Assembly (NCBI GenBank): GCA_016208315.1
Contig: JACQYF010000020.1
Location: 1 to 64,000 of the forward strand
DNA length: 64,000 bases
Direction of reading: 5' to 3'
Source: Chloroflexota bacterium
Lineage (GTDB): Bacteria > Chloroflexota > Anaerolineae > UBA4142
Position numbers and translations under genes: made by a program. Below are positions 10,243 to 63,376 of the stretch, one piece after another (within the stretch, counting starts at the first letter, position 1; every line of letters begins with the position of its first letter). The notes below the pieces were generated by a model. The model had not been told where the DNA came from. It was given only the letters and a program-made list of their open reading frames with translations, and ran no database searches.

Positions 10243-10315
10243 TAATCAGTAGCCAGTAGTCAGTAGCCAGATCAAACCTTCTAATCTGACTACTGGCTAC
10301 TGGCTACTGATTACT
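10241..10315. repeat. Palindromic 7-bp repeat (AGTAGCC type), 32-bp arms
   Basis: AGTAATCAGTAGCCAGTAGT... (10241-10272) is mirrored by 10284-10315 with two mismatches. Each arm is itself tandem AGTAGCC/AGTAGTC units. The TAG of the preceding gene (10240-10242) overlaps the element. There is no U-tract, so it is not a standard terminator. Confidence 0.9.
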
Positions 10316-27272: not shown

Positions 27273-27301
27273 AAAAACACCCCCTTCGACGAAAGGGGGT
27301 G
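27273..27301 (-). terminator. Rho-independent terminator, minus strand
   Basis: Read on the minus strand, CACCCCCTTTCG...GAAGGGGGTG is followed by TTTTTCT. It ends transcripts from the membrane-protein gene at 27316, so gyrA downstream needs its own promoter. A TATAAT at 27232-27237 (minus) is the candidate -10. Confidence 0.8.
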
Positions 27302-62056: not shown

Positions 62057-62170
62057 CACCCCCACCCTAACCCTCCCCCGTCGGAAACCCACCGACAGGG
62101 GAGGGGACGCGCAACTCCCTTCCCCTGTTCGCCGGGCTTGCGAACGGGGGAAGGGTGGGGGATGGGGGTG
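62057..62170. repeat. Two-hairpin palindrome next to the DUF559 gene
   Basis: The outer arms CACCCCCACCCTAACCCTCC and GGAAGGGTGGGGGATGGGGG are imperfect complements. They enclose two hairpins, one around CCCCGTCGG...CCGAC (about 62073-62106) and one around CCTTCCCCTGTTCGC...GCGAAC (about 62118-62153). It begins 5 bases after the MFS stop. Confidence 0.85.
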
Positions 62171-62196
62171 TTCCCACCACGCCAAAGGAGCCAACC

Positions 62197-62577
62197 ATGC
62201 AGACACACAAACACCCACACTGGCGCTCTTCCAAAGCCATGCAACACCGCGCGCGCGAACTGCGTCGCGCAATGACGCCCGCGGAACGGAAACTGTGGCA
62301 ACATATTAGGGACGGACAACTTGGCGTGCAATTCCGGCACCAACACGCCGTCGGGCCGTACATCGTGGATTTCTTTTGCGCCAAATCCAAACTGGTGGTC
62401 GAGATTGACGGAGACAGTCACGCCGACCCGGAGCAAGCGGAGTACGATGCAGAACGAACAGAATGGCTGAACGCACAAAAACACTATCGGGTCATTCGAT
62501 TCTGGAACAGCGAGGTTCTTCACAGCATCGGAATGGTATTGGCGCAGATTTGCGAAAGTCTGACCACTGGCTACTGA
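62197..62577 (+). CDS. DUF559 Vsr-like endonuclease-fold protein
   Basis: The protein has 126 residues from the ATG at 62197 (GGAG 7 bases upstream). R-A-R-E-L-R-R-A-M-T-P-A-E-R-K-L-W, G-P-Y-I-V-D-F-F-C and L-V-V-E-I-D-G-D-S-H are the DUF559 motifs with the nuclease-like E-x-D-G-x-x-H site. The role is unknown. The coding end (S-L-T-T-G-Y) reads through a CTGGCTACTGA repeat unit. It stands between a two-hairpin palindrome and a gene that has lost its 5' end. Confidence 0.88.
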   Translation: MQTHKHPHWRSSKAMQHRARELRRAMTPAERKLWQHIRDGQLGVQFRHQHAVGPYIVDFFCAKSKLVVEIDGDSHADPEQAEYDAERTEWLNAQKHYRVIRFWNSEVLHSIGMVLAQICESLTTGY

Positions 62578-62578
62578 G

Positions 62579-63376
62579 GTGACTGGAGGCGCGATTGACC
62601 GCGCGTTGGCCGACGTGTCGAAAGACAAGGACGTGGTGTTAATCGAGGGCGCGGCCGATTTGGTGGAGGGTACGTTGGTCGGCTTGCCGCCGCAAAAGGT
62701 GGCCGAGCGATTGAACGCGCGCGTGCTCGCCGTGACGAAATACGCGAACGATTTTGCGCTCGACGGCGTGCTCGCCGCGCAGGCCCAGTTCGGCGGGCGA
62801 TTCCTGGGCGCGGTACTGAACGCGGTGGCGCAGCCGCGGATCGAATTCGTCGAGCAGAGCGTGGCAGCGGCGCTCAAAACGCGCGGCGTAACCGTCTACG
62901 CCACGTTGCCCCAAGAACGCCTGCTCCTCTCGATGACCGTGAACGAAATCGCAGACGTGCTGGAGGCGGAGATCATCGGGCCAACGGATCGCGGCGAAGA
63001 GTTGGTCGAGAATCTGATGGTCAGCGCGATGAGCATGGAAAGCGCACTGTCGTACTTTCGCCGCACGCCGAACAAGGCGGTCATCACCGGCGGCGACCGC
63101 GCCGACATTCAACTCGCCGCGCTCGAAACTCTTACGCGCTGCCTCGTGCTCACCGGCAACCTGCGCCCCAGCCCGCTGATTATCGGTCGGGCGGAAGAGT
63201 TGGGCGTGCCGCTCATTATCGCCGGGCAGGACACGTTGAGCGCGGTACAAGTGATCCAGCAATATTTCGGCAAAACTCGGCTGCGCCAACCGCGGAAAGT
63301 GGAGCGCTTTCAAGAACTGCTCGACGCGCGCTTTGATTTCGCGCGGCTGTATGCCGATCTCGGAATTGGACACTGA
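62579..63376 (+). CDS. BioD-like/DRTGG-domain protein lacking its N-terminal P-loop part
   Basis: The protein has 265 residues from the GTG at 62579. The rear part of a dethiobiotin-synthetase-like ATPase (V-V-L-I-E-G-A-A-D-L-V-E-G then L-G-A-V-L-N-A-V) is followed by a DRTGG domain (about 150-250). Intact relatives, often annotated phosphotransacetylase-like, run about 350 residues and start with a G-x-G-K-T P-loop, which is missing here. I judge the gene truncated by about 90 codons. An activity depending on ATP hydrolysis is unlikely. Confidence 0.75.
   Translation: MTGGAIDRALADVSKDKDVVLIEGAADLVEGTLVGLPPQKVAERLNARVLAVTKYANDFALDGVLAAQAQFGGRFLGAVLNAVAQPRIEFVEQSVAAALKTRGVTVYATLPQERLLLSMTVNEIADVLEAEIIGPTDRGEELVENLMVSAMSMESALSYFRRTPNKAVITGGDRADIQLAALETLTRCLVLTGNLRPSPLIIGRAEELGVPLIIAGQDTLSAVQVIQQYFGKTRLRQPRKVERFQELLDARFDFARLYADLGIGH

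Follow-up and report, generated by a model that had tools for sequence, protein, structure and literature searches.

Does the two-hairpin palindrome that lies just upstream of a small nuclease gene in this Chloroflexota genome belong to that gene, and if so, in what capacity? The window, that is, the whole stretch of 64,000 nucleotides that was analyzed, contains the following features at this locus:

62057-62070, no strand: left arm of the outer stem (block A, CACCCCCACCCTAA), from sequence, pairing with 62156-62170
62071-62105, no strand: hairpin 1, a C-rich arm, a 7-nt loop and a G-rich arm (14-nt arms, 93% complementary)
62106-62116, no strand: inter-hairpin spacer of 11 nt, from sequence
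62117-62155, no strand: hairpin 2, a 16-bp stem with one mismatch and a 7-nt loop, from sequence and DNA fold
62156-62170, no strand: right arm of the outer stem (block A', TGGGGGATGGGGGTG), from sequence and consensus comparison with PMC4666352
62184-62190, + strand: putative ribosome-binding site AAAGGAG, from sequence
62197-62577, + strand: DUF559 (YcjD-like, PD-(D/E)XK) nuclease gene, 126 aa (PF04480, E = 1.4e-36)
62561-62576, + strand: short repeat TGACCACTGGCTACTG, at the DUF559 3' end, with similar stretches at 10254, 10287 and 33367
62579-63376, + strand: AAA_26-DRTGG gene that abuts the stop codon of DUF559 and is without ~95 N-terminal codons, which hold the P-loop

The palindrome lies exactly where a preliminary description of this DNA had placed it, at 62057-62170, and both sequence and folding delimit a 114-bp structure with two hairpins inside an outer stem. 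Folding as single-stranded DNA gave a z-score of -5.7 for the complete 114 nt, with 0/200 shuffles equally stable; each hairpin was likewise more stable than all 200 shuffles (hairpin 1, -13.6 kcal/mol, z = -4.1; hairpin 2, -18 kcal/mol, z = -5.8). Only one other C-rich hairpin, a short one at 27278-27301, was identified in the 64-kb window. The rest of the window's own genome revealed approximately 30 related stretches with 73-94% identity (34 palindrome matches in this genome, part of them counted on both strands). No GTAG tag of the REP type was present in 62057-62170. Since no palindrome was found on the 3' side of the DUF559 gene, the window copy is one-sided.

The ATG of the DUF559 gene, at 62197, is positioned 26 nt 3' of the palindrome, and the PF04480 match covers the whole domain (profile positions 3-108 of 109). 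Residues invariant in an alignment of 13 homologues include E17, D45, E56, D58 and H62, numbered from window base 62236. The nearest solved folds to an AlphaFold model of the protein (pLDDT 89.5) in a Foldseek search were DUF559 from Neisseria gonorrhoeae (3hrl), the homing endonuclease I-Bth0305I (3r3p, E = 1.6e-4) and Vsr (1vsr, E = 0.011); a profile search of the PDB returned 3hrl (1e-37) and 3r3p (6e-6). The modelled fold thus matches I-Bth0305I and Vsr, and the protein is a predicted nuclease. Matches to toxin B-subunits in the PDB sequence search (E about 0.1) were rejected as chance. E. coli YcjD has been placed in PD-(D/E)XK (PMC1189080). In Caulobacter, the DUF559-domain protein VsrA, which is linked to a cytosine methylase, accounts for the SOS response of cells that lack the methylase ScmA (PMC12907096), the sole in vivo result found in the literature searched. 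The PADLOC defence library gave no meaningful match. The same genome has another stand-alone DUF559 gene, flanked by a palindrome on either side (G000:C44, L002/L140), and a longer zinc-ribbon protein as the third with this domain (L003).

The gene that follows DUF559 had been described as lacking its 5' end, and our analysis confirmed this: the open reading frame (ORF) at 62579-63376 matched DRTGG in full and AAA_26 (PF13500) only from position 94 of 198, and orthologues in relatives are 341-428 aa long compared with ~265 aa here, with those read retaining the P-loop N-terminus. At its 3' end, the one-sided window copy adjoins this truncated gene. The preliminary description had further taken the DUF559 3' end to be repeat-derived; a single stretch of 16 nt that resembles short repeats in other parts of the window gives this weak support. 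This dispersed short repeat, of the form TGACTACTGGCTACTG, was seen at 10254-10303, 33367 and 62561, the last being the DUF559 3' end.

The palindrome unit, a hairpin with a short loop followed by a G-rich third block (CCCTCTCCC..GGGAGAGGG-TTA-GGGTGAGGG), is the published BoxC/PIT/'triplex motif' (TM) repeat. Its E. coli consensus reads CCCTCNCCC N3-6 GGGNGAGGG N3 GGGNGAGGG (Holder et al. 2015, PMC4666352). BoxC/TM is present in 23 copies in E. coli K-12 and abundant in >260 prokaryotes, forms a triplex in vitro, is associated with local instability in E. coli and has never been found near mobility genes; PIT elements, as cited in that paper, have neither promoter nor terminator activity (PMC4666352). 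In the window, hairpin 2 together with block A' reproduces the C-G-G order of this unit, with the third block toward the gene. The exact E. coli consensus had no match in the window, and the window palindrome is a divergent, longer-stemmed version with the same C-G-G order and other stems. Rfam returned only chance matches to miRNA hairpins, all under gathering scores.

The E. coli DUF559 gene is ycjD, and published TM no. 9 lies 168 nt past its stop codon (L313). A degenerate TM copy nearby overlaps the 3' end of ycjD, and a perfect hairpin that is not C-rich precedes the gene. According to the coordinates in the published Table 1, the third blocks of inverted TM pairs in E. coli face each other, 16-27 nt apart, in 4/5 cases, the layout expected of a cassette that lacks its gene. 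The combination of type A and type B ends seen in the E. coli pairs was not significantly preferred (15 mixed, 12 like). In the literature searched, which took in papers outside subscription journals and a minority of preprints, nothing connected DUF559 with palindromes or BoxC. The parts are already known; as far as could be checked, the DUF559-BoxC pairing and the element are new.

The preliminary description had stated that DUF559 genes often adjoin GC-rich palindromes in other bacteria, and had proposed to compare the distance from palindromes to DUF559 with that to other genes. We counted hairpins with a C-rich 5' arm and exact arms of at least 8 within 250 bp of each gene. The phylum sample comprised 201 Chloroflexota genomes, 93 of them with a DUF559 match, from which 80 regions were taken. 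Stand-alone DUF559 genes had palindromes on both sides in 34/70 cases compared with 1/552 control ORFs from these loci (P = 3e-35); for any side the counts were 56/70 and 42/552 (P = 2e-39), leaving 14/70 copies with no C-rich palindrome within 250 bp. DUF559 domains within larger Chloroflexota ORFs were flanked on both sides in 7/11 cases, and two of the other four were framed by intein-like sequence (L134 and L136). The cross-phylum sample comprised 80 named loci, 72 with enough flank, mostly from Pseudomonadota but also from Myxococcota, Thermodesulfobacteriota, Methylomirabilota, Elusimicrobiota, Kapabacteria and others. Palindromes were found here on both sides of 54/72 DUF559 genes compared with 0/352 controls, and on any side of 69/72 compared with 43/352; this set is biased because it was assembled with relatives of palindrome-flanked genes, whereas the Chloroflexota set was not. 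The stated association therefore holds, and the distance comparison strongly supports the pairing.

Allowing at most 3 substitutions, the published E. coli TM consensus was detected on any side of 44/72 cross-phylum DUF559 genes (23/352 controls) and on both sides of 28/72 (0 controls); in Chloroflexota the values were 25/65 compared with 16/485 for any side and 13/65 compared with none for both. An inverted repeat across the gene (score at least 18) was present at 54/72 cross-phylum DUF559 genes and 1/190 controls, and at 23/65 Chloroflexota DUF559 genes and 0/186 controls. Generic hairpins with arms of at least 14 were less enriched when taken alone (0.68 compared with about 0.07 per kb) because the stems are mostly 9-12 bp. 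Relative to the nearest hairpin, the third block lay inward, toward the gene, in 77 cross-phylum cases and outward in 9; Chloroflexota, with their many full two-hairpin elements, gave 34 and 29. Individual loci included a Rickettsiales single-cell genome with long BoxC hairpin arrays flanking DUF559 on both sides (L163). An N. gonorrhoeae DUF559 gene from the plasmid collection (L223), of the family of structure 3hrl, also had such motifs on both sides.

The suggestion that palindrome number depends on DUF559 presence was borne out as a trend, but not as an absolute rule. The motif was present in 44/64 genomes with a strong DUF559 match compared with 30/137 without (P = 3e-10), at a mean of 27.7 compared with 4.6 copies; 10 genomes had at least 10 copies but no strong DUF559 match. 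Relatives had up to 272 motif matches. Such co-occurrence is weak proof because genes for Y1 transposases co-occur with the motif too, in 22/30 palindrome-rich genomes including the window's own (P = 7e-5), so that only the locus-level link is specific to DUF559. This bears on the possibility that a Y1/HUH transposase (RAYT or TIRYT) mobilizes the palindromes in trans, with DUF559 as passenger or accessory. RAYT-like genes with terminal inverted repeats carrying the motif GGGGWSAS have been described (Di Nocera et al. 2013, PMC3733652), and GGGGTGAG fits this motif. Against this, RAYT-like genes in palindrome-rich Chloroflexota genomes had palindromes on both sides in 0/20 cases and on any side in 1/20, and the best Y1 matches in 0/25 and 2/25, compared with 34/70 and 56/70 for DUF559; 8 palindrome-rich genomes, several of them draft MAGs, had no Y1 match. 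RAYT/TIRYT was therefore rejected as the palindrome partner at the locus level, and we consider mobilization in trans unlikely. The RAYT-like genes of these Chloroflexota (L291-L310) have their own repeats, e.g. GCCCGACGGTTTATCGTCGGGC, which are unrelated to BoxC and thus indicate two repeat-nuclease systems side by side.

The gene and its palindromes also behave as a unit. Several genera belonging to one family have a nuclease domain of ~105 aa in frame in methionine synthase (metH), where it separates the cap domain from the B12 domain. The metH linker in family f2 exists in three states, always in frame: empty (19 aa), with a palindrome only, or with palindrome-DUF559-palindrome. The occupied states were as follows:

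metH, palindrome only: L244 (element), L233 and L247 (arrays), L249 (half)
metH, palindrome-DUF559-palindrome: L130/L227, L132, L135, L232, L235, L238, L243, L246, L255

Empty and occupied alleles of one site were seen at metH and in the genome pair G112/G293, the direction of change being unproven. A 493-bp cassette is present in G112 and absent from G293, with surroundings 94-98% identical. The joint is at GAAACAT, which occurs on both sides in G112 (as the 12-bp GAAACATGTTTC), giving a direct repeat of 7-12 bp; this was the only such case, and no consistent target duplication was found. The difference may be a loss, because a third genome (G278) keeps a DUF559 3' remnant there. Comparison of the pair (~333 kb aligned, 97% identity) also revealed a solo motif with short flanks (~55 bp) that is present in one and absent from the other, and a second cassette that is identical in both (L096). 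The L065 locus was rearranged and gave no information on this.

Near-copies also occur at unrelated sites within one genome. Two cassettes in G111 share 93% identity over 598 bp with unrelated flanks, and the shared part is bounded at both ends by imperfect inverted repeats of ~85 bp that include the hairpins. Two cassettes in G168 share 81% identity over 616 bp, the left limit being the palindrome edge. A cassette common to two Legionella species has an inverted repeat that extends ~70 bp beyond the hairpin; long terminal inverted repeats (TTAGGYAAYGTCCCTAAAG...) characterize the Legionella cassettes of L171 (5835-6491) and L176. In Azospirillum plasmids no empty site was found, and the cassette was present in every orthologous replicon identified. 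A clean empty site was also not found in E. coli, where there is no simple joint because strains without ycjD carry the eef RND operon instead. The sapF-fabI locus (L313, 1953-2306; L311, L312) holds either ycjD (3365/5426 genomes) or this operon. The E. coli cassette is located at a site of gene loss, like the window copy.

Many cassettes stay in place by vertical descent, those of metH across several genera and ycjD in 3365/5426 E. coli genomes being examples, so movement must be rare. Most DUF559 pairs had a dN/dS of about 0.1, indicating purifying selection, and the DUF559 tree, which is based on few columns and poorly resolved, was weakly ordered by phylum (15 changes compared with a shuffled mean of 17.5). 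Matches were found in only 3/50,697 phage and 43/72,556 plasmid records, and phage or plasmid cargo was rejected on this ground in favour of a chromosomal element. One large ORF, presumably DUF1156-like, carries two more palindrome-derived inserts in frame beside its DUF559 cassette (L129). The DUF559 domains in the intein-like inserts of L134 and L136 have no flanking palindromes, which suggests a second life as intein homing endonuclease.

These data bear on a second possibility, that BoxC palindromes are unstable spots (replication blocks) that act as a target for foreign DNA and that DUF559 cassettes enter them by an unrelated route. Local instability has been tied to BoxC/TM in E. coli (PMC4666352), ycjD is located where other strains have the eef operon, and the window copy abuts a truncated gene, all of which fit such a scenario. 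However, other genes were found between two such palindromes in only 1/552 and 0/352 cases, the third blocks point toward the gene (77 compared with 9), the reverse of what a gene placed in the middle of A-h-h-A' would give, and within-genome copies retain their end repeats at new sites. We regard entry at unstable spots as improbable, to a similar degree as mobilization in trans. The already disfavoured reading in which DUF559 is a Vsr-like mismatch nuclease that serves host repair, and the palindromes are ordinary features of gene ends (terminators or mRNA stabilizers), is the least probable of the three, since the predicted Vsr fold, the connection of Caulobacter VsrA to a cytosine methylase (PMC12907096) and the conservation of ycjD in E. 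coli are set against palindromes that also lie upstream, in both orientations and without T-runs, that surround DUF559 domains in frame within metH and that, for PIT elements as cited in PMC4666352, have no promoter or terminator activity, and against a DUF559 tree only weakly ordered by phylum.

Taken together, these results are best explained if YcjD-type DUF559 is the sole gene of an IS-like selfish element of ~0.5-0.7 kb that ends in BoxC-type palindromes, with solo BoxC repeats as its derivatives (probability roughly 0.6). The left end of such an element would consist of a hairpin plus the G-rich third block and the right end of its inverted version, often doubled to the two-hairpin form. 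We infer that the nuclease would cut or nick either a vacated site or DNA within or close to a palindrome, the latter being present as duplex, cruciform or slipped hairpin, and that repair on the template of a copy that carries the cassette, for which the palindromes would supply the shared homology, would copy or keep the element; we know of no case of palindrome cleavage by a DUF559 protein. Free-standing homing endonucleases and TnpB-only elements would offer analogies for this mode of spread. Solo palindromes (BoxC/PIT/TM) would be gene-less derivatives, formed by deletion between the ends or as MITE-like copies. The A-h-h-A' form may represent abutted right and left ends, as at a tandem or circle junction. 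Because the third blocks face the gene, the cassette resembles a gene with its own ends rather than a gene inserted in the middle of A-h-h-A'. The presence of palindromes without DUF559 in some genomes, and the one-sided window copy with no exact TM consensus, argue against the selfish-element reading. So do the lack of a consistent target duplication, the possible loss by deletion in G293, the 14/70 Chloroflexota copies with no nearby C-rich palindrome and the vertical retention of many cassettes. More tentatively, and at somewhat less than even odds, BoxC-type triplex-forming palindromes would be the ends and relics of an undescribed, nearly pan-bacterial class of minimal mobile elements, whose sole gene, a Vsr-like DUF559, would recognize the palindrome (as hairpin, cruciform or triplex) and drive copying by break repair without a transposase.

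Such an element shares features with several known systems. It has in common with BoxC/PIT/TM (PMC4666352) the C-G-G unit of hairpin plus third block, the inverted pairs and TM no. 9 adjoining ycjD, but those were published as orphan repeats, whereas here a dedicated nuclease gene lies between two palindromes. RAYT/REP systems (REPtrons) and TIRYT/TIRtrons (PMC3733652) likewise combine a small nuclease-type gene between palindromes with many solo palindromes and intragenic copies. RAYTs differ in being HUH tyrosine transposases with GTAG-tagged REPs, in contrast to a PD-(D/E)XK Vsr-like nuclease with BoxC palindromes. The RAYT/REP analogy of the preliminary description stands as a concept, but no HUH/Y1 transposase gene is present at the window locus, and Y1 genes elsewhere are without these palindromes. 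The free-standing homing endonuclease I-Bth0305I (PDB 3r3p) belongs to the same fold family, and DUF559 also occurs in intein-like inserts; classical homing genes, however, lack palindromic ends and target a single long site, whereas DUF559 cassettes occupy many unrelated sites and have repeat ends. Vsr and Caulobacter VsrA have a related fold, and the DUF559-containing VsrA has been connected with DNA damage in vivo, but no cytosine methylase gene adjoins DUF559 here. To our knowledge, no Vsr genes are flanked by palindromes. Insertion sequences, MITEs and Rickettsia palindromic elements show, between them, terminal inverted repeats, one gene, gene-less copies and in-frame insertion in proteins, as seen here; we know of no nuclease partner of the Rickettsia elements. 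Terminal inverted repeats were found at 54/72 DUF559 genes, though not on the right side of the window copy. Unlike insertion sequences, the DUF559 element encodes neither a DDE nor an HUH nor a serine transposase, and target duplication is not consistently seen.

BoxC/PIT/TM repeats, known in E. coli since the 1990s and in >260 genomes since 2015, have had neither a mobility partner nor an accepted origin, and DUF559 is a large family of unknown function; a link between the two gives both a testable biology. A palindrome plus PD-(D/E)XK nuclease would stand beside REP/RAYT and TnpB-only elements as a counterpart. Inserted palindromes would account for the proline-rich runs, PHPNPLP...GEG for example, of many predicted proteins. 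On the more tentative, nearly pan-bacterial reading, E. coli K-12, with ycjD and 23 BoxC motifs, would be the laboratory model. The link also makes the origin and instability of BoxC repeats directly testable in that strain through one small gene, ycjD.
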